Source: Rubrivivax sp. (lineage in GTDB: Bacteria; Pseudomonadota; Gammaproteobacteria; Burkholderiales; Burkholderiaceae_C). From it: a DNA stretch of 62,623 nucleotides. Below, one piece after another: positions 9,965-56,885 of this stretch (position 1 is the stretch's first letter; every line of letters starts with the position of its first letter). The stretch spans positions 1-62,623 of the forward strand of contig JACZKT010000389.1 of NCBI GenBank assembly GCA_014859905.1, in the 5' to 3' direction. The translations under genes were made by a program, and so were the position numbers. The notes under the pieces were generated by a model that was not told the DNA's origin, searched no databases, and saw nothing but the letters and a program-made list of their open reading frames with translations.

Positions 9965-12900
9965 TGAACAACATCGAGTTCGTCAGCGCCGGTGCGGGCA
10001 GCGGCAAGACCTACAAGCTGACCGAGACCCTTGCCCAGGCCCTCGAAGCCGGCTCCGCACGACCGCACGCCATCCTGGCCACCACGTTCACGGTGAAGGC
10101 GGCCACAGAGCTGCGCGAACGGGCCCGGTCCTGGCTGCTTGAGAAGGGGCGTATCGACCTGGCGACGGCCATCGGGCAGGCTCGCCTGGGAACTGTGAAC
10201 AGCGTCTGCGGGCAGATGCTCAAGCGGTTCTGCTTCGAGCTGGGCCTGTCTCCCGACCAGACTGTCCTGAGCGAAGGACAGACCAAGCGTCTTCTCGAGA
10301 CATCGCTTGCCGAGACCCTGGATGCGGCGGGACAGTCGGAGCTCGTTCGACTCACTGCCCGCTTCGGCATCGAGCAGGAGGACTGGTCCAAGACCATCAA
10401 GGACGTAGTCAAGGCCGCATTGGACAACGACATCGACGCGCCTGCGCTTCGTCAGATGGGAGCGCGCAACGCTGACCTGATGCTCTCCAACTGGCCCAAA
10501 CCAGCTGCTGGCACCGACCCCACCCCGGCCTTGGTCGCCGCACTCGGCAAGGCACGGCAGGAGGTCACCGACTTCATCGAGCAGCAAATTGCTGCCGGAG
10601 CAAAGGTCGCCAAGAACCTACACGAAGGCCTCGATGAGTTGCAGCGGTTTGAACGCGCCTTCCGCGAAGGGCGTTGGTCTTGGCCCGATTGGATTGGTGC
10701 TGCCGGCGTCGACGCCGGGGCCAAGGTCAAGCAAGTGCTTGAGCCTGTAAAGGCTGCGGCCCAGGCGCATGAGTCTCATCCGCTCTTCCATGCGGAGGTG
10801 CGCAAGTACCTCGAACTGGTGTTCAACCTCTCGGCCGATGCCCTCGATGCCTACGAAGAGGCCAAGACGGTGTTGGGCGCAGTGGACTTCAGCGACCAGG
10901 AGGTACTGCTGCTGCGTGCCATCCGGCAGAGCGCCACCGTACGAGAAGCGCTGGCTGCTGAGCTCGACCTCGTGATGGTCGATGAGTTCCAGGACACAAG
11001 CCCGCTCCAGCTCGCACTCTTCGTCGAATTCGCCAAGCTCGCCAAGCGCTCTGTCTGGGTCGGTGACCCCAAGCAGGCCATCTATGGCTTTCGCGGCACA
11101 GACGCCGGTCTGATTTCTGGCGTCCTGGGAGCCATCAAGATTTGGGGCGGCACCATCGGTCAGCCCCTGACCACATCCAGGCGCTCCACTCCTGCCCTGG
11201 TATCGCTCACCAACGAGGTCTTCGGCTCAGCATTCCTGCCAGACCTGTCGCCCCAGGATGTCGAGTTGCAGCCTTCGCGCAAAGATATCCCTGGTCAACC
11301 GGCGCTTCTGAACTGGGACTTCGAGAGCAGCAAGAACGATTCGGACTATCTCGGACTGGGTCAGGCTGTTCGCGGACTCCTTGCATCCGGCGCACAGGTC
11401 GAAGATAAGGCCAGCAAGGCACTTCGGCCGATACAGCCCGGCGACATCGCAGTGCTCTGCCGTCGCAATGAACAGGTCGAACTGGCCGTCACCTCGCTCA
11501 CCCGCTGGGGCATCCCCTCCGCCAGTCCTCGCTCGGGTCTTCTCGGCACGGCCGAGGCCATCTTCGTGCTTGCCTGCCTGAGGCGAATGCATGACGCCAG
11601 CGACACAGTTGCGTCTGCGCTGGTCCTGACCCTTGCCGACGGCACGCCGGTGGACACGTGGCTCGCCGACCGCCTGGACTACGTGGGCAAGGACGGCGCC
11701 AAGCTCTACGAGTGGAAGACAAGTGGGCAATCGGCTCATCCCCTGCTCGCCCGGCTCGAAGAACTTCGCTCAACCCTCGCATCCCTCACGCCGAGGGAAT
11801 CGCTTCGCATGGCAGCGGCAGAGTCACACGTCGCGCGACTTGCCGGCCAGTGGTCGAGCTCTCCGCACGAAGCTCGCACCCGTGTGGCCAACGTCGAAGC
11901 ACTGGTCGAACTCGGCAAGACCTACGAGAACGAATGCGTCGCTGCGAAGCGGCCCGCGACGGTGAGTGGAATGCTCCGGTGGCTCGACGCAGTCTCACAG
12001 GCTGAAGACGACGGTCGGGCGGCAACAGCGGACAACTCGGTCACGGTTCTCACCTATCACGGCGCCAAGGGCCTGGAGTGGCCGGTCGTGGTGCTCACCG
12101 CCCTCGGCGAGACTGCAAGGAGTGCGCTCTGGAGCGTACGCGCGCGGACGGTCGGCGCATTCGACCCACAACAGCCCCTTGGCAACCGATTCATTCACTG
12201 CTGGCTGAAGACTTGGGGCAAGCGCTCCGCCCCACAGGCGGCCGTCAACGCGGAGGCAAGCGACATCGGCAGGGCCATGCAAAGCGATGCGCTGGCTGAG
12301 AACAAGCGACTGCTCTATGTCGGGCTGACCCGCGCCCGTGACATGAATGTGATTTCGTCTTTTGTGCGGAAGGCAGGACCCAACCGTGGTTGGGTCGAGG
12401 AAATTCCGACTGCAACGCCGGTCCTGTTTGGTGTCACTGCGACGTTGGTGCTGCCCGACGGCCAGCGGCTCGCGAGAGTCTCGAGGGCCTGGAGCAAGGA
12501 CGACTGCGCGCTGCAGCCGGCACCTCAGCCTGCCGTAGACCGCCACTGGTTCGTTCCCCGGCCCCGCGCGACTGCCAAGCCACTGTGGCATCGGCCGAGC
12601 AGCGAAGTCGGCGGGCAGTTCACGGTCGCAGAAACCGAAACTGTGGGCGTTCGCATCGCCCTAGCTGGAAAGCCAGACATGGTCGACCTGGGAACCGCCC
12701 TGCACCTGTGCATCGCGCGGGCGGGTGTTCTCGGAAAGGTCGAGCCCAGCGAGGTCGAGCGAATCCTCAGCAGCTGGGGCGTGGCCAATGCCGTCGACAA
12801 AGCGGCGGTCATCGCCCAACTCACGACCTTCCACGCCTGGCTTGGTAAGCGTTGGCCTGGATGCCCCGTCTTCGTCGAGGTGCCGGTCGAGACCGACGGA

Positions 12901-36267: not shown

Positions 36268-37887
36268 TCAGGTCAGCAAATGCTCCTCGACCCCGGCCAT
36301 GGGGTCATCGACAGCCAAGTGTGACAGACGTAGTCCGTCGTAGCGCAGCAGCCTGATGGCAGCGACCAGCTTGGTGAACGGATACTGCCTTTGTTCACGT
36401 TTCAAGTAGGTGCGTGAGGCATCCCTGCCGTTCAGCCAATGTCCCGCAAGGGCATCCCGCGTCTCTTCCTCAACGTTACAGAGCGAACACTGCTGTTTAA
36501 ACGCATACCGAAATGAGTGGTAATCGAGCCGGCTATCGGTGAGCCCGATGTCCTGGAGGTAGCGCCCGTACCATTTGCCGACCGAGTTGCTGTAGATGCC
36601 GTTTGCGTTGTCGTTGCTCAGCGTCGGGAAGACACGGTCAGCCCCGCTTGCGGCGACCCTGGCCACATAGGCGAGGAAGCCCGCTTTGACGAGTTCCTCG
36701 TGCAAGGGAACCCGACGGAAGCTGCTGGCAGTCTTGACATTCTGGTCTTCGCCGATGTCGCAGATGCGGATGGACCAGACGCCGTTGATGCGCTGAACGT
36801 CGGCCACGCGCAGCTGGCACGCCTCCTCGATGCGCGGGCCAGCGAAGGGGCCGAGCAGGGGCACCCAGTAGGCCGCGTCACTCGCCTGCCCTTTGGGACG
36901 GTATCCCTGCGTGTACAGCTTGCTGGAGAACAGCGTGTTGAGCTCGCTGACCTCATAGGCCCTGCGGTCCTTGGGCGCCCGTAGCCCCTTGGCGCCGTTG
37001 ACGAGGATGCGCTCGAAGGGGTTCGTCGCCAGGTTCTCCACGGTCTCCAACATGCCGTGACGTACGAGCGTGCTGAGGAAGCCAATCGCGTTCTCGACCG
37101 TGCCCTTGGAGAGCTGTCGCTCGATGAGGGAGTCGCGATAGGCTCGGGCATGCTGTCGCGTGATGGTTTCGACCGGCAGCGGGCCATGCAGGGCCCGGAA
37201 CTGCATGACTGCGCGCTGGACCGCGCCGACTGTGCGTGGTCTGGCCTGGTCCAACTTCCAGTGCTCGAACAGGTGCAGCATCGTCGTGCCTGGATACATC
37301 AGCCCTGGCGCGGACGGCGAGGTTATCGCCTTGGCTCGGGGCTTGGGACCTGCGGCGCTGGGCGATGGCGTTGGCGTAGCTTCTGGACGGTTCGCGACCA
37401 GCGCCAGGGGCGACCGAGGAGGGGCCTGAGGGTGCACGCTCAAGGCGTCTGGCTTCTTCCTCATGGCATGCGCCGACGACCGGTTCTCCTGGGCGGCTTC
37501 CGCCGCTTGCGCCCGGGCCGGAACCACGGGTGCTTCCACGCGCTCGGACTGGCCCGGCGGCGAGCCGCTGGTCAATGCCACGAGCTGCGGTTGGCCGTCT
37601 CGTTGGTCGGAAACCGTTCGGAGCGCAGCCTCACGTCGAAGCTGTGCGACTCTCAGGTCGAACTCTGTGATTTCGACCGCGAGCAGCGGCCTGGCCTGCT
37701 CGACGAGGTGGGTCCCAAGGGACTTCCAGACCTGCTCCCTGAACTCCGTGAACCCGTGAGCCACATCGGCCGGAATTCGGCGTTTGAAGTACAGGGCGTT
37801 GCCGCGGCGGATGAGGTACTTGGGCAGCGTGGTGGTCGACTGCTCAGCGCCGGAGATGGGACGCCGAACTGGACGCGATGAGGTCAT
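36268..37887 (-). CDS. tyrosine recombinase, DUF6538-type, paralogous to neighbour
   Basis: 'KYLIRRGNALYFKRRIPADVAHGF...'; 'AGPRIEEACQL', 'HSFRYAFKQ', 'LAGHW', 'TYLKREQRQYPF'. Confidence 0.92.
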   Translation of the reverse strand: MTSSRPVRRPISGAEQSTTTLPKYLIRRGNALYFKRRIPADVAHGFTEFREQVWKSLGTHLVEQARPLLAVEITEFDLRVAQLRREAALRTVSDQRDGQPQLVALTSGSPPGQSERVEAPVVPARAQAAEAAQENRSSAHAMRKKPDALSVHPQAPPRSPLALVANRPEATPTPSPSAAGPKPRAKAITSPSAPGLMYPGTTMLHLFEHWKLDQARPRTVGAVQRAVMQFRALHGPLPVETITRQHARAYRDSLIERQLSKGTVENAIGFLSTLVRHGMLETVENLATNPFERILVNGAKGLRAPKDRRAYEVSELNTLFSSKLYTQGYRPKGQASDAAYWVPLLGPFAGPRIEEACQLRVADVQRINGVWSIRICDIGEDQNVKTASSFRRVPLHEELVKAGFLAYVARVAASGADRVFPTLSNDNANGIYSNSVGKWYGRYLQDIGLTDSRLDYHSFRYAFKQQCSLCNVEEETRDALAGHWLNGRDASRTYLKREQRQYPFTKLVAAIRLLRYDGLRLSHLAVDDPMAGVEEHLLT

Positions 37888-37975
37888 GAGGTGCTCCGCG
37901 ATGGGTTGTCACGGGCCCTTCTGCGCAGCGTTCTGCCTGCCGCCGTCGAAGGTTCGGCGGTCAAGCCGACACCCC

Positions 37976-38021
37976 AACTGCTACACACCGACTGCTACAC
38001 AAACGGACCGACTGTGTAGCA
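37976..38021. repeat. three TGCTACACA units (two direct, one inverted)
   Basis: AACTGCTACACA (37976-37987), GACTGCTACACA (37990-38001), TGTGTAGCA (38013-38021). Confidence 0.7.
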
Positions 38022-38056
38022 CCGTCGCATCGCGAAGCGGGTAGCAGAAAACGAAA

Positions 38057-38110
38057 AAGCCGTTATAAGTCAATGACTTACAACGGCTTCTCAGATTGTT
38101 GGCGGAGTGG
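38057..38110 (-). other. candidate att site: hairpin/terminator plus tRNA-Ser 3'-end-like fragment CCACTCCGCCA (minus strand)
   Basis: AAGCCGTTATAAGTCA/TGACTTACAACGGCTT stem at 38057-38089 with U tract on minus strand; TGGCGGAGTGG at 38100-38110 is the complement of CCACTCCGCCA. Confidence 0.5.
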
Positions 38111-38384
38111 ACGTCCGGGCCTTTAGGCCGTCATAGCGTCTCACTGCATCCAAGATTTCAGTCCGGACTTAGCGGGCAGCGCAAGCGATCACTTCTTAAC
38201 GTCCCACGAATACCCATCAAATCCGCGTCGCATCCGGGGGTTGTAGCGGGGGTCGTCGATTTGGGCGGAGAGCCCTGTAGGGCGGACCATCCCTCCGTCG
38301 AACTGCCGACCCCCGTCATGATGCCACACAGGGCGAGTCGGGCCCCACGCCAAGCCGCCCTGTTGCCTGCTGCACTGGCGATTC

Positions 38385-39668
38385 TCAGGCCGCACTGCGA
38401 GGCTCCTCCTGCTCTGCGGCATCCGTGACTTCAAGCTCCAGTTCACCTCCGGTATCCGAGGCTTCCTCAGCATCCGGCTGAACAACGGCGCACCACGCGG
38501 CCCAGTCTTGCATCAGCGCGCGGCGACGCTCGAAGAGGTCAGAGCGCCGGTAGGCGTTCTCGACGGCGTTCCCCACGGTGTGCGCCAACGAGAGCTCGGC
38601 CAGTTCCTTCGGGTACTGGGTCATCTCCGCCGCCCAGTCCCGGAACGTCGAGCGGAACCCGTGCACGGTCAGATCCGCACGGTTCATACGTCGCAGCACC
38701 GTCAACATGGACATGCTCGACAGCATCTTGTCTTCCCTCGCGCCAGGGAAGACAAGCACAGGGTGCAGGCCACGGAGCTTCTTCAAGATCTCCAGCGCGG
38801 CATCGACCAATGGGATGCGATGCTCCTTGCCGTTCTTCATACGCTCTGGGGGAATGATCCAGACGCGCGCCTTGAAGTCCATCTCGGCCCAGTTCGCCCC
38901 GAGCACCTCACCCGTTCGGCAGGCGGTGAGAACGGTGAGTTCCAGGGCTCGGGCCCCGATGCCCTTCTGCAGCCGCAATCCTTCGAAGAACGCCCCGGTT
39001 TCCCGATACGGCAAGGCCGGGTGATGCTTCACCTTCTTGAGCTTCGCCGGTTTCGGCAGCAGTTCTTCCAAGTGGCCATGCCACCGCGCCGGGTTCTCGC
39101 CTTCGCGATAGCCCTGCTTGGCAGCCCAAGACAAGACGCGCTCCATCCGCTCGCGGATCCGAGAGGCAGTCTCCGTCTTCGTCTTCCAGATCGGCTGCAG
39201 CACCTTCAGCACCAAAGGGGTGTCGATGCGCCGAACGTGGAGCTTCCCAAGGTGCGGCGAGACATACGTGCTCAGCGAGGTCTCCCACTGCTTCTGATGC
39301 TTCTCGTTCTTCCACGCTTCCTTGTGGCTCTTGATGTAGTCCGCCGCACAGCGGTCGAAGTCGAGATTGCTCAGTTGTTCGACCTTGTTGGCGACAACGA
39401 GCGCATTGCGCACCTCGAGCGGGTCCTTGCCTCCGGACAGACAGACCCGTGCGTCTCGCGCTTGCTCCCGCGCCTCGGCGAGGCCCACGGTATGCGTGGC
39501 TCCCAAGCCCATGTAGCGCTCTTTGCCGTCTCGCTCGTACCTGAAGATCCAGCTTTTCACCAAGGCCTTCGTGATCTGAAGGTACAGCCCTTTGCCGTCG
39601 GCGTAGCGACCCGGCTTCGAGAGCCGGGCAACCTTGAGCGCCGTCAGCTTTTCAATTCCGCCTGCCAT
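38385..39668 (-). CDS. P4-type integrase (DUF4102/Arm DNA-binding tyrosine recombinase)
   Basis: 'KLTALKVARLSKPGRYADGKGLYLQI...SWIFRYERDGKERYMGLGATHTVGLAEAREQA'; 'TACRTGEVLGANWAEMD', 'HGFRSTFRDWA', 'LAHTVGNAVENAYRR'. Confidence 0.95.
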   Translation of the reverse strand: MAGGIEKLTALKVARLSKPGRYADGKGLYLQITKALVKSWIFRYERDGKERYMGLGATHTVGLAEAREQARDARVCLSGGKDPLEVRNALVVANKVEQLSNLDFDRCAADYIKSHKEAWKNEKHQKQWETSLSTYVSPHLGKLHVRRIDTPLVLKVLQPIWKTKTETASRIRERMERVLSWAAKQGYREGENPARWHGHLEELLPKPAKLKKVKHHPALPYRETGAFFEGLRLQKGIGARALELTVLTACRTGEVLGANWAEMDFKARVWIIPPERMKNGKEHRIPLVDAALEILKKLRGLHPVLVFPGAREDKMLSSMSMLTVLRRMNRADLTVHGFRSTFRDWAAEMTQYPKELAELSLAHTVGNAVENAYRRSDLFERRRALMQDWAAWCAVVQPDAEEASDTGGELELEVTDAAEQEEPRSAA

Positions 39669-41145: not shown

Positions 41146-41439
41146 CTACGCCTCCCCGACCGGCGGCGCTTCGAAGACCTGATTGGTGTGACGGGCGACC
41201 GACGGGCTGACACTCGGCTCGCTCGCCGGGCTTACCAGCGGGCCCATTGCCGCGACACCTTGCGCCGCCATCCAGTGCTGCGCGATCAACCCCTCGTACG
41301 CCAGAAACCGCAGGCGGTTCACCCGCTTCGTGCCCTTGTTGAACCGGATCAGGTCGTCGTACAGGCGCGGGTTGTCGTCACGCGTCATCTCGAACAGCAG
41401 CCGCACCGGCTCTTGGGCACGCTTCGCATCCTGAGTCAT
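41146..41439 (-). CDS. ParR/StbB-like partner of ParM-like protein
   Basis: 97-aa protein coupled (4-nt overlap) downstream of ParM-like gene. Confidence 0.5.
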   Translation of the reverse strand: MTQDAKRAQEPVRLLFEMTRDDNPRLYDDLIRFNKGTKRVNRLRFLAYEGLIAQHWMAAQGVAAMGPLVSPASEPSVSPSVARHTNQVFEAPPVGEA

Positions 41440-42488
41440 GCGCCGCCTCCTTCAGATGCCGTCATGCGCTGCCGGCTCGCAGTGGTCAGCGTCGTGTGCG
41501 CGTAGTTCGTCCCTGCGATCTGGTAGCCGCGCACATTGGCGAACACCGGCTCCTTCACCTCAAGGATCAGGTGGGTGCTGAACGCCTGCTTGACGGCCTT
41601 CTTGAACAGGAAAGCGCCGCCGCCCACCAGGATCACGTGCTGCACGTTGAAGGCGCCGCCAATGCGACGCATCATGGCCGCGACGGCGTCCTTGGCGATG
41701 ATCTCGACCATCGGCCGCATGCGCGCCGGGTTGTACTGTCGCTGGTAGACCGTGAGGGTCTTGCCATTGCGTAGCGCCCAGTCGATGCTGTCCAGGTTCG
41801 TGTAAGCCTGTCCGATCTCCTGGCTGATGTCGTCGGCGACCAGCTGCAGGATGTTCGAGACGCCGCGGTCCACGGAGTAGCTCTGCTTGTACGAGAGCTT
41901 CATGCCGCGCGCGACCAGCCAGTCGAAGGTCCGCGAGCCCGGGTCGATGACCAGGCTCTGTTCATGCTCCATCGCCTCGACCTTGTCGTGTTGCGTGGCG
42001 TAGTCGATCAGCGCGCCGTTGGGCTGCGCCATCGCGAGTGCCTTGTGCACGACCACGGTCTTGCCGCCGCCCACATCGTGGCGGCCGGTCATCAGTTTCT
42101 CGAGGGCTGCCTTCTTGGCCGCGAACGCCGCCACCGGCAGGCCGACCACAAGCAAGTCGACGGCGTCGACCTTCATCATCCGCAGCGCACCGCGTGCCAG
42201 CGCCAGGTACTGCGGCGTCTCGATGTAGTCGCCGTGGATCTCGGTGGCGCGGAAGGCATCGGCCGCCAGCATCACGTCCGGGCCGACCTCGTAGTACAGG
42301 CCGCCGATGGGAATGGCGAAGGTCTTGCGCCCTTCGCTGCCCAATGCTTTCGACGGGTCACGCGGTGTGGGGTAGGCCCTCGACGGGAAGCTGGCGCAGC
42401 GAATGTCGCTGGCACGGCCGCCACCGATGCCGGTGACGAACTTGGTGTTGCCGAATCCGACATCCACCGCTCGGACGATCAATTCCAT
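41436..42488 (-). CDS. ParM/StbA-like actin-family protein (PRTRC protein D-like)
   Basis: 'IVRAVDVGFGNTKFVTGIGG', 'LVIDPGSRTFDWLVARG', 'HVILVGGGAFLFKKAVKQAF'. Confidence 0.8.
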   Translation of the reverse strand: MELIVRAVDVGFGNTKFVTGIGGGRASDIRCASFPSRAYPTPRDPSKALGSEGRKTFAIPIGGLYYEVGPDVMLAADAFRATEIHGDYIETPQYLALARGALRMMKVDAVDLLVVGLPVAAFAAKKAALEKLMTGRHDVGGGKTVVVHKALAMAQPNGALIDYATQHDKVEAMEHEQSLVIDPGSRTFDWLVARGMKLSYKQSYSVDRGVSNILQLVADDISQEIGQAYTNLDSIDWALRNGKTLTVYQRQYNPARMRPMVEIIAKDAVAAMMRRIGGAFNVQHVILVGGGAFLFKKAVKQAFSTHLILEVKEPVFANVRGYQIAGTNYAHTTLTTASRQRMTASEGGGA

Positions 42489-43001
42489 GGGGGGCTCCGT
42501 TTTGTGGTTCACGGTTGGTCAGCATCGACATGCCGATGCGACGCGTCCACGCAGAACACCCCTCCAAAACGCCCGATTTCGCGACCGGCTCGAACCTGGG
42601 TCCGACTACAACGTCATCGACTCGCATCCAAACGCGAGCAGCTCGCTCGTGCGCTTCGGGAGGTTCCTGCATGTCGAGCTACGTTCTCACTCGAATGAGG
42701 CTCGTCAACCCCGCTCACCGCGCAGAGGGCGCCGCCGCCGCCGACCTGCCGGCACGGCCACAAAGGTTCCCCCTTGGACCAGAGGCAGCAAGATTGATTG
42801 TCAACCCCGCATCCAGCCTCGCTCCTGGACCCTTCGGGACAATAAACGCGGCTCACAAGCACATCCCGGCCCTGTTTTCGCCACCATCAATCGCTGCGAC
42901 ATCAAGCCAGTTGCGGCGCCCACGGCTTGACCCGGGCGCAGGCCCAGCGTCAACTATGGTTTCCCGTTGGCCGCCCTGGCCATGCTCCTCACGGAGCCAA
43001 A

Positions 43002-44981: not shown

Positions 44982-47006
44982 CTACGCAGCCAAGGCCTCG
45001 GGTGAAGCTGGCTCCGGCGCATCGTCAAGCGCTTCGTCGGTCGCCGTCTCCACCGCCCGCCGCGTGCGCAGGCATGCGGGCAGCCAGCCCCTTGCCGCCA
45101 CGGTCTGTTCCGCGCCGCTCGCGGCGTCGGCCTTCTTCAGCGCGGCCAATGGGCTGGCCGCGTTGGCATCCACCGCTTCCGTCACCACGTCGAGAATGCG
45201 CGCCTTCGACACGTGGCTGAAGTACGAAGCGCTGGTGGCCGCCCACCACTTGTTCATGTCCAGTCCCAAGGCCGCGGCCAGCGCGTCCGTGCGCTGCCGT
45301 TCAGGCTCGATGCCATAGAGGCCCGTCACGGTCATCGCGACCGCGAAGGTCAGCAGTTGAATCACCGTCGCCTGCTCCTGCGTCAGCAGCCAGGGGAACA
45401 CCTGGTCCATCTCCTGCGGCAGGCGAGCGGCCCACGACGTGCGCTCGGCCTGAACCCTGGCCCAGGCGGCGCTGCCCTGCATGTCTTCGGCCGCGGCCTG
45501 CAAATCGGACTGGCTGTCTGCCGCCGTGATGGCGAAGACCGTCTCCGGCCGCTGGTACCCGCGGGCATCGTCTCGGAAGATCAGCTGCGCCAGTTGCGCC
45601 GTGAGCGCTGCCAGCGCCACGTCGGGGCGGGCCGTCAACTCGGCCTGCACGGCCGCAACGCGGTGGGCGGTGAGGCGCCGGGTCAGTCTCTCGGAGTGCA
45701 CCGGTCGGGTCTTGGCCGAGGGCATCGACACCACTGACTCACCCGCGCCATCCGCTTCGCTGGCCTGCCGCGCGGCGTCGGCCATGCCGCTGCGGTCGTC
45801 CGGCCGGATCAAGCCGTACTTGACCTCGGCCGTTCCCTTGCTGCCCACGAAGACCACGCAGCCAGCCTGGGCCATGAGCTCGGGTGGCCAGACGCACAGG
45901 GCATCCTGCAAGGCCCTCAGTTGGGTTTCCAGCACCTCGGCCTCTGCTTCGAGCTTGAGGAACTCCCGGTCATCGTTCTCATCGTCGCCCTCGTGCTCCT
46001 GCAACGCGTCCATCCGTGACTGCAGGGTGTCGAGTTGGCTCCGCAAGCCCACCATGGCGCCGGCTTCTTCGTCGCTCGGTGTGCGCCTCGTCTTGCGCAG
46101 CTCACCGAACTTGACGAACTCCTCGAAGACATAGCGCGCCCGAACGTCGACCCACTTCCAGCCCTCGGCGGCGACCTGTCTGGCCTTCTTGCGCAGCTTG
46201 TCGGTTGCCAGTGAGTCCAGCAGGGCGGCGTCGAGCAAGTAGGCCTTCCTGTCGTCGTCACTGAACAGGTCGCGCCGCAGCGTGCCACCCGCCTTCTCGT
46301 AGGCCTTGAGCGTGACGTAGCGCGCAACCGGATCGGTGTCGGATTCGATTTCGCCCTGCGTCAGCAACTGGCGCAGGTAGTCGGGTCGGCGGTTCCACGA
46401 CGGCATGCCGGTCCACACCTGCTCCTGACGCGCATGGTCGTCGCACGAGGCCAGCACCATCAGGCAATCCAGCCCGATCTGCCCCTCGCGAAACTGTGCC
46501 ATCAGGCGCGGCGAGACCGCCGCCAGCTTCATGCGGCGCTTCACCACCAGGGGCGTGACGCCGAACGCCGCAGCCACGTCCTCGACCGATTTGCCCGCAC
46601 CGATCAGCTTGGCGAAGGCGACGTATTCGTCGGCCGGATGCATGGGGATGTGGAACACGTTCTCGGCGAGGCTGGCGATGAGCGCCTTGTCGGCGGGCAC
46701 GATCAGCACCGGCACCGGGTAGTTCTCGGGGATGTCATCGGCCTGCGCCAGCGCCGTCAGCGCTTCGAGCCGGCGCCCGCCGGCGCAGACCTCGTGCATG
46801 CCGCGCACGCCCTTCACGACGATCAGGTTCTGCAGCACGCCGCTGTCCTTGATCGAGGCAGCGAGTTCCGCAATGCTCAGCTTGGGCGTGCTGCCTTGCG
46901 GGCGCACCTGGCGCTCCTCCGACAGCACCAGTTTGTTGAGGGGCACCGTCGTGCGCGGGGACGCCGCGATGACGGCTTCGATTTCGGCTTTGGAGAATTT
47001 CATCAA
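44982..47006 (-). CDS. ParB-family protein (PRTRC-type)
   Basis: 'RPQGSTPKLSIAELAASIKDSGVLQNLIVVKG...HEVCAGGRRLEAL...LIASLAENVFHIPMHPADEYVAFAKL..SVEDVAAAFGVTPLVVKRRMKLAAVSPRL'. Confidence 0.92.
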   Translation of the reverse strand: MMKFSKAEIEAVIAASPRTTVPLNKLVLSEERQVRPQGSTPKLSIAELAASIKDSGVLQNLIVVKGVRGMHEVCAGGRRLEALTALAQADDIPENYPVPVLIVPADKALIASLAENVFHIPMHPADEYVAFAKLIGAGKSVEDVAAAFGVTPLVVKRRMKLAAVSPRLMAQFREGQIGLDCLMVLASCDDHARQEQVWTGMPSWNRRPDYLRQLLTQGEIESDTDPVARYVTLKAYEKAGGTLRRDLFSDDDRKAYLLDAALLDSLATDKLRKKARQVAAEGWKWVDVRARYVFEEFVKFGELRKTRRTPSDEEAGAMVGLRSQLDTLQSRMDALQEHEGDDENDDREFLKLEAEAEVLETQLRALQDALCVWPPELMAQAGCVVFVGSKGTAEVKYGLIRPDDRSGMADAARQASEADGAGESVVSMPSAKTRPVHSERLTRRLTAHRVAAVQAELTARPDVALAALTAQLAQLIFRDDARGYQRPETVFAITAADSQSDLQAAAEDMQGSAAWARVQAERTSWAARLPQEMDQVFPWLLTQEQATVIQLLTFAVAMTVTGLYGIEPERQRTDALAAALGLDMNKWWAATSASYFSHVSKARILDVVTEAVDANAASPLAALKKADAASGAEQTVAARGWLPACLRTRRAVETATDEALDDAPEPASPEALAA

Positions 47007-49101: not shown

Positions 49102-49616
49102 GCTTGCACCCCCAACATGGCCATCACTGTCGACGGCGTCCCGCCCTTGTTCAACCAGCGCCCCACAAAGTGCGCCTGCCCTGCGCAGTCCCGGACATCG
49201 GCGCTCGATTGCCGCAGGTAGCTGTTGATTCGCCTGGCGGCGCCCGGCTCACCGGCCACGGTGCGGCCCGATATCAACAAGGCTCCATGGTGCGCGCCGA
49301 ACAGCAAGGCCTCTCGCACATATGGACGAAGGATGCCTACGCCTTTGGCCACAGCCGACCGCTCCAGCGGGTGGTCTTGAATCCAGGTTGCGAGCGAAGT
49401 GCGCACGGTGCCCGGCAGTTGGCTGCGCGTCTGCCCGCGCAACACGAAGCTGGCACCGACGAAGGCCAGCTCAACGGGCAGCGCGGCCGTCGCGCCGGCC
49501 ACCGTCTCGGCTTCCGCCCGGTATCCCCTGGCCACCTGCCACAGCACAACGGCGCAGAACGCCGGATTCAGCAGGTTGCGTTGCTCGATCGTTCTGGCCT
49601 GCCAATCGGTGGTCAT
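49098..49616 (-). CDS. ABC-3C middle component
   Basis: 'EQRNLLNPAFCAVVLWQVARGY...' between ATPase and CTD protein, 4-nt overlaps both sides. Confidence 0.75.
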   Translation of the reverse strand: MTTDWQARTIEQRNLLNPAFCAVVLWQVARGYRAEAETVAGATAALPVELAFVGASFVLRGQTRSQLPGTVRTSLATWIQDHPLERSAVAKGVGILRPYVREALLFGAHHGALLISGRTVAGEPGAARRINSYLRQSSADVRDCAGQAHFVGRWLNKGGTPSTVMAMLGVQA

Positions 49617-50827
49617 GGCGCGGCCTCACCGGCGGGCGCATCGAAGATCGCCTGCATGCGAGCCTCGAAGTCGGGATGCCAGCCCAGGCGCCGATCTTCA
49701 GCGAGCATGTGCAACGATCCTCGGCATACCCAGGGGACACTGACTCCAGGTTTGATGGGCAACGGCGCATCCTCCGCCCACTTGAGGATGGCCCGGCCCG
49801 CTTTGGTCATCTCGTCTTCGCCGGCACCTTCACCCAGTTCGTCGCAAACCTGCTCGCGCAACAACGCCCACTCGGTGAGTAGGCGCTGGTCGTACTGCCG
49901 CAGATCGGCATCGAACAACAAGTCATCGCGCGTCCAGGCGGAACGCTGGCGAAACGCCTGCAAGTAGCTCGTGATCGCGTTGCGGATGCGGCGCGGCCCC
50001 GCGCCCACAATTTCAACCTGGCGATAGAACGGCCGGCTGGCGAACTCCGGCAGCTGTTCGAGAGCCACCATCAAGGCATCGATCTCTTCGTCGATGGGCA
50101 ATCCATCGCGCTTCAGCGATTCCTGGACCTCAGAGATTTGGGCGTCAATCTCCGCCCTTGGAATGCCGCCGCCCCCATGGACCAGTTCGAAGATGACCCG
50201 TTTGAACCACCAGCCCTCGATCATCTGAACCGACAGTGCCTGGTGGTGAAGCGACACGTGATACAGCTCAGCCTGCAACTGCGAGTGGATGGCGTCGGCA
50301 TTGGGCTGGCCCGCCACCACGTAGATGCTGCTCAACAGCTGCTGGCGCTCGGCCTCACCCAGCGCGAGGAAGGCCTCGAATGCGTCCTTCAGCTCGGCAT
50401 TCGTCGACGTTGTGCCCGCCTGCTTGAGTCGACTGGACGCGGCTTCGACATCGCGCCCCTCGCCCTCCGGGACCAGCGCTGAACAAGCGGTGCCGGCCGA
50501 TATCACCGACGTGGAGATCAGAAACTTTGCGGCGACGATGGGCACCTCGCCGCTGATGCGGCCGACCATCCAGACTCGCAGCGTCTTCTACAGTTCAGGG
50601 CTGAGATCGCTCAAGCCGGATGTGCTGTGAACCGAGTGCTTGGTCTGAAGCACGGCGATGGGATCGCCGTTCGCCTCGAAACTCACGTCGTCCAGCGTTT
50701 CGACGCTGACCGAGAAGTCCCCGATCCGGCTCTGGCGGATGGCCCAGAGCAATGCCACGCGCACCTGGTAGAGATAGCCCAGCATCGAGGCACCGGCATT
50801 GAACGTCGCGACAGTTGATTCGCCCAT
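49613..50827 (-). pseudogene. ABC-3C system effector/CTD protein with one in-frame TAG
   Basis: MGESTVATFNAGASMLGYLYQVRVALLWAI...KHSVHSTSGLSDLSPEL[TAG 50588-50590]KTLRVWMVGRISGEVPIVAAKF...; 1215 nt, same frame both sides of TAG. Confidence 0.8.
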
Positions 50828-52293: not shown

Positions 52294-52571
52294 TGATTTC
52301 TGCATCACCTTCATCACTGAAAGAGGGCTGACACCGGACACGCTGCCGACAGGCCATGCTGCCGCGACCGACCGCCTTGGCAGGCCGCAGGCCGCGGTGC
52401 GCCATCGCAAAGCGACCCGCCCGCGCAGAGGTTTCGGGTGGCATCCGCCCATGGCGTCGGGGGCGGTCTTGAGCTTGCACCCCTGCGCTGCCAGACTGCA
52501 AGGGCTACCCGTGGGCATCGCGCCTGCCAAGCCTTCATCAGAGGCCCCGGCCTCCTGAAGTCCAGTTCGCT

Positions 52572-52782
52572 GGCGTCGCAGTCGTTACCTGCCTTGTAGA
52601 GCCCGGACATCGTTCCGGTTCAGCCGCGACTGTGGCTGTGGATTGAGTTCAGCTCTCGGGCTGAACACCGTGGCCTCGTGCCACAGAAGCGCTCCGCCCC
52701 CCGGCTGGAGCATCCCGAACGGGGAACCCCATGTTCCCCGCCGGGGACAGGTGTTCCCTTTCATTCGATGAAGGAGAACACC
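52572..52782 (+). promoter_or_regulatory. structured leader copy 1 (box + two hairpins ending at start codon)
   Basis: Box 52572-52593; hairpin B CGGGGAAC/GTTCCCCG 52720-52740; hairpin C GGTGTTC (52750-52756)/GAACACC (52776-52782) enclosing AAGGAG; ATG at 52783. Confidence 0.65.
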
Positions 52783-52968
52783 ATGTTCGCTGTCCAAGTG
52801 ACGAGAGTGCTGCGCCCTGTCGGGGTGCTGCTGGGCGGTTCCGGGCGTGCCCGTGAGCTGACCCTTCGCGCGCCGCAAGTCGCCGCGCTGATGAAGCCCA
52901 TTTCGTTTGCGTTCACGCAGGCGTTCGAGGCCGTCGAGAACCGCGTTGCGGAAGGGGCGTCATGCTAA
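52783..52968 (+). CDS. small hypothetical ICE protein
   Basis: MFAVQVTRVLRPVGVLLGGSGRARELTLRAPQVAALMKPISFAFTQAFEAVENRVAEGASC; overlaps next ORF. Confidence 0.6.
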   Translation: MFAVQVTRVLRPVGVLLGGSGRARELTLRAPQVAALMKPISFAFTQAFEAVENRVAEGASC

Positions 52969-53162
52969 CCAACCTGTACCGCAAGCGCATTGCTGCCCTG
53001 GCGATTCAGCTCGCCAAGGACGACCCTCAAGTGGTCAAGGAAGTGATCGCCCGGCTGCGCAAGTCAGGCGAGATCGAGGCCGACGATCTGGTCTATCTGG
53101 ACGAGATCGCCGACCGCTGGATCAGGATTGCCGATGAGAACCGGCAGAAGGCGCGCCGCTGA
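52962..53162 (+). CDS. small hypothetical ICE protein
   Basis: MLTNLYRKRIAALAIQLAKDDPQVVKEVIARLRKSGEIEADDLVYLDEIADRWIRIADENRQKARR. Confidence 0.65.
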   Translation: MLTNLYRKRIAALAIQLAKDDPQVVKEVIARLRKSGEIEADDLVYLDEIADRWIRIADENRQKARR

Positions 53163-53403
53163 CCACCGAGGTCAAACGCGCTGGAGGGTTCACGCCCTTC
53201 ACCTTCGCCAGCTCCGAGACGATCCTGTCCAGCAGATCGGGGCGTTCATCGGCAAGCGTACCGGCCCATGCGGCCAGCGCTTGTTCGATGTCGTCCTGCG
53301 TTCGCACCCCTTCGAAGTCGAGTCCGAGTGATCGGAATTCCTCGATTTCGTCGGGGGTGAACCGTCGTGACTTGCCTGCACGAAGCATCGTGTGGGCCTC
53401 CAT
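53122..53403 (-). CDS. small hypothetical protein (antisense overlap with preceding ORF end)
   Basis: 'SRRFTPDEIEEFRSLGLDFEGVRTQDDIEQALAAWAGTLADERPDLLDRIVSELAKV' has natural composition. Confidence 0.45.
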   Translation of the reverse strand: MEAHTMLRAGKSRRFTPDEIEEFRSLGLDFEGVRTQDDIEQALAAWAGTLADERPDLLDRIVSELAKVKGVNPPARLTSVVSGAPSAGSHRQS

Positions 53404-53449
53404 GTGCGGGGCTGATCAGGTTATCAGCACCGCATGCCTTCGCAACCCT

Positions 53450-53509
53450 CGGGGAGCCCACCGCTTCCCGCCTGGGATGGGTGTTCCCTCTTTCACCGGA
53501 GTCAACACC
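53450..53509 (+). promoter_or_regulatory. structured leader copy 2 (two hairpins ending at start codon)
   Basis: Hairpin B CGGGGAG/CTTCCCG 53450-53470; hairpin C GGTGTT (53480-53485)/AACACC (53504-53509); ATG at 53510. Confidence 0.55.
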
Positions 53510-54028
53510 ATGTTCCCTGAGAAACCCGACAAGGTTCGTCCTCGTGCCAAGCGCTTCGGCGTCGAGTTCGAGGAAGAGCGCGCCTGGGTCAGCTTCTACC
53601 GCCGGGTGCGTCACGACGTGACCCTCGCCACCGAAGTGCTGTCCCAGCTGGAAGCCGACCCCGAGATGAAACGCACGCACCTGGCGCTGGTCCTGTGCTG
53701 CAAGGAATCGCTGCGCGGCCACAAGGCACGCCAGGCCCGCAACAAGCGGATCGGCCAGTTCGTCCGCTGGCTCTGCCACGGACTGTTCGCCGCACCTCTG
53801 CGCATGATGCGCCGCGGTGCCGACATCGCCGTCGAGTGCCTGCCCGAGACCGCCAAGGAACCGGCGGTAAGCCAGGTACGGCGCTTGACGCGCGAAGCTG
53901 AATTCGCCCAGGCGCAGTCAGCCTTCGCACCGAACGCTGGCTCACCCGAGGCGGCACCCGCTGCCACGCAGACCGAGGCTTCACCGCCCCGCTCGCCACG
54001 AGGCCAGACCGCCCGCTCGGCTGCCTGA
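53510..54028 (+). CDS. hypothetical ICE protein
   Basis: MFPEKPDKVRPRAKRFGVEFEEERAWVSFYRRVRHDVTLATEVLSQLEADPEMKRTHLALVLCCKESLRG... Confidence 0.65.
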   Translation: MFPEKPDKVRPRAKRFGVEFEEERAWVSFYRRVRHDVTLATEVLSQLEADPEMKRTHLALVLCCKESLRGHKARQARNKRIGQFVRWLCHGLFAAPLRMMRRGADIAVECLPETAKEPAVSQVRRLTREAEFAQAQSAFAPNAGSPEAAPAATQTEASPPRSPRGQTARSAA

Positions 54029-54277
54029 CCGAGAGCGCCAGGCACTCCAACGCCTGGCCCGGCACCGCAGCGCCCGCTGTGTTGCCTGGATCGTCGAACG
54101 CTCACGCCCACCTCCCCGGTGGCGCGTGACGCGCTCGGCCTTCCTTCCCTTTGCCCTCGTTCCGAGGCAGCCCGGCTGCCTCCGATCTCGGCTCGCGGCC
54201 ACGGCCTCGAGCCCCCGCCTCCCTCCACACCTCGACCTGCCGCCGGCCGGTCGCACCCTCATGAAAGGAACTGTCCC

Positions 54278-54724
54278 ATGGCCAACGCCAATGAAATGCC
54301 ACGTGCCGGCGAGGCGCACGCCCAGATCGCCAGCGCGCGGGAGCTGCGTCAGCTTGCGCACGACACCTTCGGGTTGGCCTTACAGGCCGTCCCCGCGCTG
54401 CCAAGCTACAAGGCCTTCTTCTACGACCGCGAGTACGGCGACCTCACCGATGCCGTCACGACCGACTCTTTCGACGCCGGCGTTCAACTCGTGCGTGACC
54501 GCTTGCCGGTGCAGGCCGACTACGTGGTCGAAGCCACGTGGACACGCGGCATCGGCGAGATGGAAGTCCGTAGCCCGCGAGGCACAGTGGTGGCCCGCGT
54601 CCAGCCTGTCGGCGACACCGATGTCACGGTGCAGCCGCCCGTGACCAAGGCCTGCACGGCGTTGCAGGTGGGCGATGCCGCGCCACTCGAGCATTTGTTC
54701 AGCTCGATGCCGAGAGCCGCGTGA
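54278..54724 (+). CDS. hypothetical ICE protein
   Basis: MANANEMPRAGEAHAQIASARELRQLAHDTFGLALQAVPALPSYKAFFYDREYGDL...; RBS AAAGGAA. Confidence 0.65.
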   Translation: MANANEMPRAGEAHAQIASARELRQLAHDTFGLALQAVPALPSYKAFFYDREYGDLTDAVTTDSFDAGVQLVRDRLPVQADYVVEATWTRGIGEMEVRSPRGTVVARVQPVGDTDVTVQPPVTKACTALQVGDAAPLEHLFSSMPRAA

Positions 54725-54874
54725 CGCGCCACGGCCGTAGGTGATCAACTTGCAATGAGAAGCACGACCCCGCCCTTCCGGGACGGATCGTGCTCTCACT
54801 GCTCTCAAGGGAGGGGAGACTTATGCTCGAAGCCAGGTTTCCGGCGCCGGGAGGCACAAGCGCCTGAAGCCACC

Positions 54875-55642
54875 ATGCCGACATGCCCCCGTGCCGTCAA
54901 GAACATCGTGACCAAGACCTACCTGCTCATCGATCTCGAGAACCGACAACCGGCCCCGGAGCACGTGGCGGCGTGGATGGGACATGACGGCGAGGCGTGG
55001 ATCTTCTACGGCGAGCAGCAGATCAATCTGCTCCCGAACTACTGGCAGCTTGGCGATCAGGTTTCCATCGTGCCCATCTCAAGGGCCGGCAAGAATTCGC
55101 TCGACTTTCATCTGGTTCTCTACCTTGGCTACCTGGTGGCCAAGCGGAAAAAGGGCTCACGGTTCGTCATCGTCGCTGCGGACGCCGACTATGACCCTGC
55201 CGTCGCCCACGCGCGAGCCGAAGGCATTGATGTCGTGCGCCTGCCGGAACTCACAGCGCTTGGGTGCCCAGCGGAGAGGCCCACTCCCGACGCTCTGCCG
55301 CCGCCGGCCGCCAATCGGTCCAGGTCCGGTTCACCGGCACGTAACGCCGCCTCTGTGAAGTCACCGGCCACTGCCACGGCGGTTCGCGAGCGCGGAAAAG
55401 CACCGACCAAGACCACGATCTCCATCTACGCAGGAACGCTGAAGGACATTCGCAGTCCCAATCGGCCGAGGGATCTGCAAGCTCTCAAGAGTCGAATTCA
55501 ATCCCGGATTGGTCAGGGAGCAGCACCACAGCAGGTAGCCGAAGTCATGGCTCGCCTCGCAACGATGGATGTGATTCAGGTCATCAACGGCGAACTGCAC
55601 TACCTGGCCAAAGCGATCGACGAAGGCGGCACGCGCGTTTGA
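54875..55642 (+). CDS. PIN/NYN-like domain protein
   Basis: 'KTYLLIDLENRQPAPEHVAAWMGHDGEAWIFYGEQQINLLPNYW...VPISRAGKNSLDFHLVLYLGYLVAKRKKGSRFVIVAADADYDPAV'. Confidence 0.75.
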   Translation: MPTCPRAVKNIVTKTYLLIDLENRQPAPEHVAAWMGHDGEAWIFYGEQQINLLPNYWQLGDQVSIVPISRAGKNSLDFHLVLYLGYLVAKRKKGSRFVIVAADADYDPAVAHARAEGIDVVRLPELTALGCPAERPTPDALPPPAANRSRSGSPARNAASVKSPATATAVRERGKAPTKTTISIYAGTLKDIRSPNRPRDLQALKSRIQSRIGQGAAPQQVAEVMARLATMDVIQVINGELHYLAKAIDEGGTRV

Positions 55643-55681
55643 TGTTCATGCCGTGGCGGGCCGCTACGGCAGGGCCGCCAA

Positions 55682-55888
55682 TCATCGGCAGCGCTGGTAC
55701 TCGCGGTCAATCAGCCAGTGCAGAAACTGCGTCTCGCGCGACACGCCCCAGTAGTGGGCCTTGCAGTGGGCGATGTAGGCATCGAACGCTGCCGGCGTGC
55801 GCACACCCACCGGCGCGATGCCGGTGATCTTGGTGAAGCGCTCGACCTCCCGGCTGGTGAGTCGAACCTGCTTACCGAGGCGAATCAT
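55682..55888 (-). CDS. small hypothetical protein
   Basis: MIRLGKQVRLTSREVERFTKITGIAPVGVRTPAAFDAYIAHCKAHYWGVSRETQFLHWLIDREYQRCR. Confidence 0.55.
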   Translation of the reverse strand: MIRLGKQVRLTSREVERFTKITGIAPVGVRTPAAFDAYIAHCKAHYWGVSRETQFLHWLIDREYQRCR

Positions 55889-56179
55889 GGTGCGTGCGAA
55901 CCGCTTTCGCACGCTATCTTGGCCGCGTCGCAAGCACTTGTGGTGGGTTGGACCCGCGCTTTGCGAAAGATTTCCAGAACGTGAATCCAGTGTCGGGCGA
56001 GTCTCACTACAACGAGAGCAGCGCCTCTCCGGCCGTAGCGGCGCCGCCACGCGCAACCGAAGCCGCTCTCCATCGCTTCGACATGGCGTCGCCGGCCCTG
56101 GCCTTGCCGCCGCCCGGCAGTCGCCGCAGACTGCTCCCTCCCTTGTGCATTTCCCAGCGAAATGCCTTCCGGCAAAGCC

Positions 56180-56303
56180 GGCGTCGCAGTCGTCACCTGC
56201 CTTGTCATCAGCATGGGCCATCCGGCCCATGCATCCCGAGCGGGAACCTCGTTCCCGGGTCGGGTTCGGCGTTCCCGCTTTCACATTCATGAAGGAGAAC
56301 GCC
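56180..56303 (+). promoter_or_regulatory. structured leader copy 3 (box + hairpins ending at start codon)
   Basis: Box 56180-56201; CATGGGCC-ATCC-GGCCCATG; hairpin B CGGGAAC-CTC-GTTCCCG 56241-56257; hairpin C GGCGTTC (56268-56274)/GAACGCC (56297-56303); GTG at 56304. Confidence 0.65.
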
Positions 56304-56885
56304 GTGGACATGTCCACCCTTTCAAGGTCCGAGCTGGTCGGCGCGTTGCTCGCGCACGACCGCCGGTTTCTTCCCGATAACCGCTTCCACGTCGCCGACG
56401 GTGAGCCATTCAACGGGCCCGTCATCGCGCAACAGACGCTGCTCGACCAGAAGCTGAGCGCCGCGCGCGAGCTGATCCTGCGCGACCTGCAGACCCGCAT
56501 GCGTGGCGCCCCGGTGATGAACTCGCCGCAGACTCTGCGTGAATGGCTGCGGCTGTACTGCGCCGGCCTGGAGCACGAGGTCTTTCTGGCGCTGTACCTC
56601 GACGCGCACCATGCCTTGATCGGCACCGAGCAGCTGTTCCGTGGCACGCTCACGCAGACCTCGGTGTACCCGCGCGAGCTCGTCAAGGCGGCGTTGGCCC
56701 GCAACGCGGCGGCGGTCGTCGTCGCGCACAACCACCCCAGCGGCAACGCCGAACCCAGCCGCGCCGACGAGTTCCTGACGCAGACCCTGAAGTCCGCGCT
56801 GGGCCTGGTGGACGTTCGCTTCCTCGACCACTTCGTCGTCGCCGGCGACCAGGTCGTGTCGTTCGCCGAACGCGGGCTGGTCTGA
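56304..56885 (+). CDS. RadC-like JAB-domain protein
   Basis: 'SPQTLREWLRLYCAGLEHEVFLALYLDAHHALIGTEQLFRGTLTQTSVYPRELVKAALARNAAAVVVAHNHPSGNAEPSRADEFLTQTLKSALGLVDVRFLDHFVV' (HxHPSG). Confidence 0.95.
   Translation: MDMSTLSRSELVGALLAHDRRFLPDNRFHVADGEPFNGPVIAQQTLLDQKLSAARELILRDLQTRMRGAPVMNSPQTLREWLRLYCAGLEHEVFLALYLDAHHALIGTEQLFRGTLTQTSVYPRELVKAALARNAAAVVVAHNHPSGNAEPSRADEFLTQTLKSALGLVDVRFLDHFVVAGDQVVSFAERGLV

Follow-up and report, generated by a model that had tools for sequence, protein, structure and literature searches.

A repeated two-hairpin leader in a Rubrivivax contig that looks like a shared RNA switch of Proteobacterial conjugative elements

The window analyzed here is the whole 62,623-nucleotide stretch of Rubrivivax sp. 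(NCBI GenBank assembly GCA_014859905.1, contig JACZKT010000389.1, positions 1 to 62,623, forward strand). Three of its genes, starting at 52783, 53510 and 56304, are preceded by leaders built on a common two-hairpin plan, namely a GC-rich hairpin (P1), a short joint and a second hairpin (P2) which contains the Shine-Dalgarno (SD) sequence and whose 3′ arm is flush with the start codon (ATG, ATG and GTG for leaders 1, 2 and 3). Comparison of sequences suggests that such leaders may be a common on/off switch, not described before, for genes handling incoming DNA in Proteobacterial conjugative elements.

Leaders and genes at the locus

The three leaders are real and were located as follows, together with the genes behind them.

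52714-52782, + strand: leader 1 (match of covariance model R1 at 52717-52785)
52714-52716 with 52744-52746, + strand: P1a of leader 1, CCC with GGG
52720-52727 with 52733-52740, + strand: P1b of leader 1 (hairpin B)
52750-52756 with 52776-52782, + strand: P2 of leader 1 (hairpin C); upper P2 at 52758-52764 with 52768-52774
52771-52776, + strand: SD sequence AAGGAG of leader 1, within P2, as read from the sequence
52783-52968, + strand: gene 1, 61 aa, no Pfam or NCBIfam match
53446-53509, + strand: leader 2 (R1 match at 53447-53512)
53446-53448 with 53474-53476, + strand: P1a of leader 2, CCC with GGG
53450-53456 with 53464-53470, + strand: P1b of leader 2 (hairpin B)
53480-53485 with 53504-53509, + strand: P2 of leader 2 (hairpin C); SD sequence GGAG at 53498-53501
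53510-54028, + strand: gene 2, 172 aa, no Pfam or NCBIfam match
56235-56303, + strand: leader 3 (R1 match at 56237-56306)
56235-56239 with 56260-56264, + strand: P1a of leader 3, CCCGA with UCGGG
56241-56247 with 56251-56257, + strand: P1b of leader 3 (hairpin B)
56268-56274 with 56297-56303, + strand: P2 of leader 3 (hairpin C); SD sequence AAGGAG at 56292-56297
56304-56885, + strand: gene 3, RadC-like JAB-domain protein, 193 aa, GTG start (PF04002, 1.2e-41)

Hairpins B and C are the names given to P1 and P2 in an earlier sequence-only reading, which had placed both before the three genes, with the 3′ arm of C flush with the start codon. They are found at those coordinates, except that hairpin B of leader 2 is imperfect and is missing from the predicted minimum-energy fold of that leader. 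The linker of 9-10 nt described in the same reading does lie between the hairpins but is not a plain single strand, as a conserved GGG between P1 and P2 is able to pair with a conserved CCC 5′ of P1 and so to lengthen P1. The compensatory change noted in hairpin C is also present (U-A at 52752-52780 in leader 1, C-G at 56270-56301 in leader 3), and the SD sequence is inside this hairpin as described.

Folding z-scores against shuffled sequence were -4.6, -2.4 and -4.6 for leaders 1, 2 and 3, and the 12 nt 5′ of the start in leader 1 had a mean pairing probability of 0.91. Both strands of the window together contain 14 flush hairpins with a 7-bp arm, and Markov-shuffled copies of a single strand contain 1-10 each; since a flush hairpin alone is common by chance, the case against chance rests on the shared two-hairpin plan and on homologues. 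The R1 search gave no additional good copy in the window beyond leaders 1-3, and two further copies were found on other contigs of the Rubrivivax genome (C486:23502-23573 and C232:9791-9859).

Distribution of the leader and the genes behind it

The covariance model R1 was built from 14 leaders and includes the start-codon columns. At E<=1e-3, matches were present in 27 of the 369 genomes searched from the class and in 8 of the 299 from the phylum, counting the genome that the window comes from; several often lay close together, clustered per element. Six further leaders, every one before a RadC-like gene, came from a loose DNA pattern run over 299 genomes of the order. A pattern for P2 only, run over named genomes, gave 61 loci, mostly in Betaproteobacteria, and most of the matched leaders also had P1; R1 found 120 copies in this survey, while one viral contig and several hits outside the Proteobacteria that matched the P2 pattern had no R1 match. 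The two surveys together gave 183 distinct copies, training copies included. Of these, 180 end in ATG, GTG or TTG, a figure which is partly built in because R1 contains the start-codon columns. An independent check of the leader position is given by DUF3577 genes, which were found by protein alone: those with readable starts have the leader, and 14 of 15 DUF3577 genomes were also R1-positive.

The host elements are integrative and conjugative elements (ICEs) and plasmids of Beta- and Gammaproteobacteria, and the named ones include ICEHin1056, pUM505, pSGI4 and pPATH. On two Janthinobacterium plasmids, radC and a relative of gene 2 are found in the order seen in the window, and both genes have the leader. 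In a sample of 60 copies the downstream families were RadC (11), DUF3577 (STY4534) (10) and DUF6573 (4), along with DUF3275, DUF932, SSB, ArdA, ArdC, RecT, DUF3150, helicase and methylase; several of these would fit genes that act on DNA newly arrived in the cell. Relatives of gene 1 (MFA..VLLGGSG) occur behind the same leader in many genomes, and relatives of gene 2 have EEERAWVGFY in common.

Two side observations concern these records. In ICEHin1056 (L183), RNA-OUT (RF00240), the antisense RNA of IS10/Tn10, matches at 10244-10313, in or next to the leader-bearing gene at 9887-10366. In another genome (G543), three DUF3577 matches (L164, L174 and L176) have an identical score and one in-frame TAA each.

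Covariation of P1 and P2

Double changes at paired positions were 206 against 74.5 +/- 6.5 after shuffling in the first alignment and 198 against 64.5 in the second, and structures slid along the alignment had much lower pair-count scores than the proposed one. When column pairs were ranked by covariation under a tree-based null, pairs of P1b or P2 took nine of the first 10 places in one set and 10 of the first 12 in a larger one; single pairs mostly reached significance only when tested inside the proposed structure. These alignments of P1 and P2 were fitted to R1, and a sequence-only MAFFT alignment lost the covariation signal because the G-runs shift. Nearest-neighbour contrasts were made on a second set of 93 more divergent leaders, none of which was used in model building and some of which are shared with the first survey; here P1b gave 31 against 1 and P2 36 against 4, and three control strand pairs were null. 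The SD sequence therefore lies within a conserved helix, as in leaders that sequester the ribosome-binding site (RBS), and the comparative evidence points to a real and widespread cis-regulatory RNA module. The sequence-only reading had proposed a repeated cis-acting RNA of conjugative elements and had named a lack of further copies or of covariation as grounds for giving it up; this part of its proposal is borne out, because the copies are many and the covariation is strong, and the coordination of ICE gene translation that it also proposed is a putative role.

The same data bear on an action at the level of DNA, in which the leader would be bound by a dimeric protein as its operator or would fold as a hairpin in the transferred single-stranded DNA (such as a Frpo-like promoter). 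The palindromes, the downstream genes resembling establishment genes and the nearness of radC and STAXI motifs would agree with it, and single-stranded DNA was considered for STAXI by Weinberg 2010 (PMC2864571). We regard it as very improbable, as the arms vary with pairing kept, loop sizes vary unlike those of a dimer operator, G-U exceeds A-C (127 against 51, as expected of sense-strand RNA), and the 3′ arm, in which the SD sequence lies, keeps its place at the start codon.

The alternative helix

By sequence complementarity, the 5′ side of P1 could also pair with the 5′ arm of P2, giving an alternative helix that the sequence-only reading had missed along with the U-rich tract behind it, the P1 extension and the radC and STAXI RNAs upstream in relatives. 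In the window it was placed as follows.

52722-52758, + strand: alternative helix of leader 1, GGGAAC at 52722-52727 with GUUCCC at 52753-52758, then U-rich UUUCAUUC
56241-56247 with 56271-56277, + strand: alternative helix of leader 3

For description, the leader is divided into six strands from 5′ to 3′: (1) CCC, (2) GGGGA and loop, (3) UCCCC, (4) GGG, (5) the 5′ arm of P2 and (6) the 3′ arm of P2 with the SD sequence. In state A, strands 1:4 and 2:3 would form P1 and 5:6 would form P2, so that the ribosome site is hidden. In state B, 2:5 with 3:4 inside would form one long hairpin, leaving strand 6 free and the ribosome site exposed.

R1 does not contain the alternative helix, and the alignments are therefore not biased towards it. 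Among the 183 copies its own pairing exceeded that of shuffled partners with z 15.6, and the control strand pairs gave little or nothing. Since the shuffled-partner test ignores descent, nearest-neighbour contrasts were used, and the 93 divergent leaders gave 32 against 4 (p 9.7e-7) with null controls. Leaders annotated in ten named plasmids agree with the helix, some of them having been mis-assigned by the automatic P1 finder, and it reaches 10-11 bp in ICEHin1056 and pPATH. Thus the mutually exclusive helices 2:3, 5:6 and 2:5 are all conserved by compensatory change in the 93 leaders (more weakly in the first set), the 3′ arm runs up to the start codon, and different genes of one element carry copies. 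On this comparative evidence the leader appears bistable.

When transcripts were cut before strand 6, state B was the minimum-energy fold in 107 of 180 copies, leaders 1 and 3 included, a comparison made on minimum-energy classes only. For the full-length leader, state A was better by 7-9.5 kcal/mol in the window and by 2.7-5 kcal/mol in three relatives.

Proposed mechanism and rival explanations

From this difference between cut and full-length transcripts a switch in ribosome access is proposed, and we hold it somewhat more probable than the reverse that the leader is a cis-acting bistable RNA switch which sets the access of ribosomes to the start of each gene. During transcription the nascent RNA would adopt state B first, allowing translation for a short time, after which the full-length RNA would settle in the more stable state A; alternatively, an element-encoded factor or an upstream RNA domain would hold one of the states. 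The two states themselves are drawn from the helices, while the difference in expression between them, and the trigger, are what we infer.

Some results weigh against this switch. In the first set, support for the alternative helix is weaker (36 against 18, p 0.01), and the closest half gives no signal. The column-wise covariation test does not see this helix while the alignment-free contrasts are positive, probably because the lengths of the G-runs shift the register, and the column tests lean towards P1 and P2 because the model had guided the alignments. Sequestration in state A is strong, the median cost of opening the site being 9.6 kcal/mol, and no opener was identified. The U-rich tract behind state B fits a terminator equally well.

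This tract, following the alternative hairpin, makes termination a serious rival, and both could act. The leader would then be a transcription attenuator in which state B (2:5 with the U-rich tract) is an intrinsic terminator, P1 is the antiterminator and P2 is a second, translational lock on read-through RNA. In the 8 nt after strand 5, T makes up 54% against a background of 21%, and 46% of copies have >=5 T of 8; a terminator scan flags leader 1 only, and the prevalence of state B in the cut transcripts would also be expected. We nevertheless think attenuation unlikely, if worth keeping in view, as more than half of the copies have no strong U-tract, the U-rich stretch doubles as the P2 loop and may be used by ribosomal protein S1, and termination alone leaves the covariation of P2 up to the start codon unexplained.

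A flush RBS hairpin on a mobile element may also be read as passive insulation, which merely blocks the translation of read-through transcripts, much as transposase mRNAs are kept silent by fold-back inhibition; native transcripts would then have their 5′ ends within the leader. Another hairpin precedes some leaders, and the upstream 50 nt have a median z of -1.37 against -0.30 for a control stretch, as this would allow. It is improbable in our judgement, since no sigma-70-like promoter was found near the leaders, and the conservation of P1 would have no reason and the conserved alternative helix no role.

Other readings were put aside. Regulation by CsrA was discarded on inspection alone for want of a consistent GGA loop, and an RNA thermometer likewise for want of a FourU. 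Coupling of translation to the upstream gene was rejected as the distance from the upstream stop to P1 ranges over 8-392 nt, and no conserved loop nucleotides were found that would hint at a ligand-binding aptamer (riboswitch).

Relation to known RNAs

The sequence-only reading recognized no named element in the leader, and no Rfam 15 model matched it, relaxed thresholds included. Like the leader, the radC RNA (RF01754; Weinberg 2010, PMC2864571) is a cis-regulatory RNA of proteobacterial mobile elements; unlike it, radC is an upstream domain of 149 positions that has other hairpins and stops short of the start codon. RF01754 had no match in the window at E<=5 and none in 28 related loci (gathering score 40), and none of its hits overlapped the leader in 13 leader-holding records. 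It was over the cut-off in 11 of 34 records, where it lies upstream of the leader and a few hits overlap the first 25-28 nt of it. An R1 match follows 28 of the 33 radC RNAs examined, on the same strand and starting within 40 nt of the radC end, by a hand count from coordinates in which several R1 matches are weak and four overlap the last 25-28 nt of radC. A search of 143 genomes with RF01754 gave no match, but its own controls were also silent. The ZWD version of the radC alignment differs from that of Rfam (PMC7657543), and it may extend over the leader; this is the main risk to novelty, the comparison here being with the Rfam version.

The STAXI RNA (RF01728) shares a similar gene context and lies 50-70 nt upstream of the leader in pSGI4 and pPATH, taking the place of radC. 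It differs in its tandem pseudoknots with UUCG loops, its other sequence and the lack of a flush RBS hairpin, and RF01728 had no match on the leaders, its matches being separate and upstream. EGeRS1 of Bacillus pLS20 plasmids (Firmicutes; PMC8708921) spans 420-750 bp and has, beside the RBS of the establishment operon, a branched fold of about 325 nt; these features set it apart from the conserved module of about 70 nt. With bistable leaders that sequester the RBS (translational riboswitches; metastable toxin mRNAs, PMC6733600) the leader shares mutually exclusive helices, one of which hides the SD sequence, but it has no evident ligand domain and is reused across unrelated genes of one element. 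No paper describing the leader was found in the literature covered, which does not extend to Weinberg 2017.

More broadly, and only as a tentative and rather doubtful proposal, an undescribed bistable module of this kind may serve as the expression platform that the several genes of a regulon have in common in Proteobacterial ICEs and plasmids, standing behind at least two upstream RNAs (radC and STAXI) and giving brief early expression of DNA-establishment genes followed by shut-off through refolding. For radC and STAXI, catalogued in 2010, no known mechanism was found in the literature; in the elements checked, the leader follows most radC RNAs and the STAXI RNAs seen, and this offers a testable output for both. 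The leaders can also be used to trace the regulon that conjugative elements share, with such poorly known families as DUF3577, DUF6573, DUF3275 and DUF932.

Surroundings of the leaders in the window

Further features around the leaders are the following.

52962-53162, + strand: open reading frame of 66 aa, ATG overlapping the end of gene 1, without its own leader
52569-52596, + strand: upstream motif before leader 1, GCTGGCGTCGCAGTCGTTACCTGCCTTG, common to leader 3 and the leaders of relatives
56178-56205, + strand: upstream motif before leader 3, GCCGGCGTCGCAGTCGTCACCTGCCTTG, the same motif as before leader 1

The 66-aa frame is likely the second cistron after gene 1. The conserved motif 5′ of leaders 1 and 3 and of relatives' leaders reads GCYGGCGTCGCAGTCGTNACCTGCCT and is possibly another upstream RNA domain, in the place of radC or STAXI. 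Before leader 2, at 53401-53437, the sequence CATG..GGGCTGATCAGGTTATCAGC..CATG resembles by eye the first hairpin of RF01754 and has no Rfam match.

Genes for a ParM-like actin (41436-42512), a ParB-like, PRTRC-related protein (44982-47006) and an integrase (36268-39668) are also present in the window, and in the Janthinobacterium plasmid relatives a PRTRC gene and an integrase are kept beside the leader genes. On the minus strand, an in-frame TAG at 50588-50590 interrupts an apparent ABC-3C system CTD7 gene; its upstream part ends at 50588, the downstream open reading frame at 49613-50569 is in the same frame, and MC3 and DUF3732 genes adjoin.

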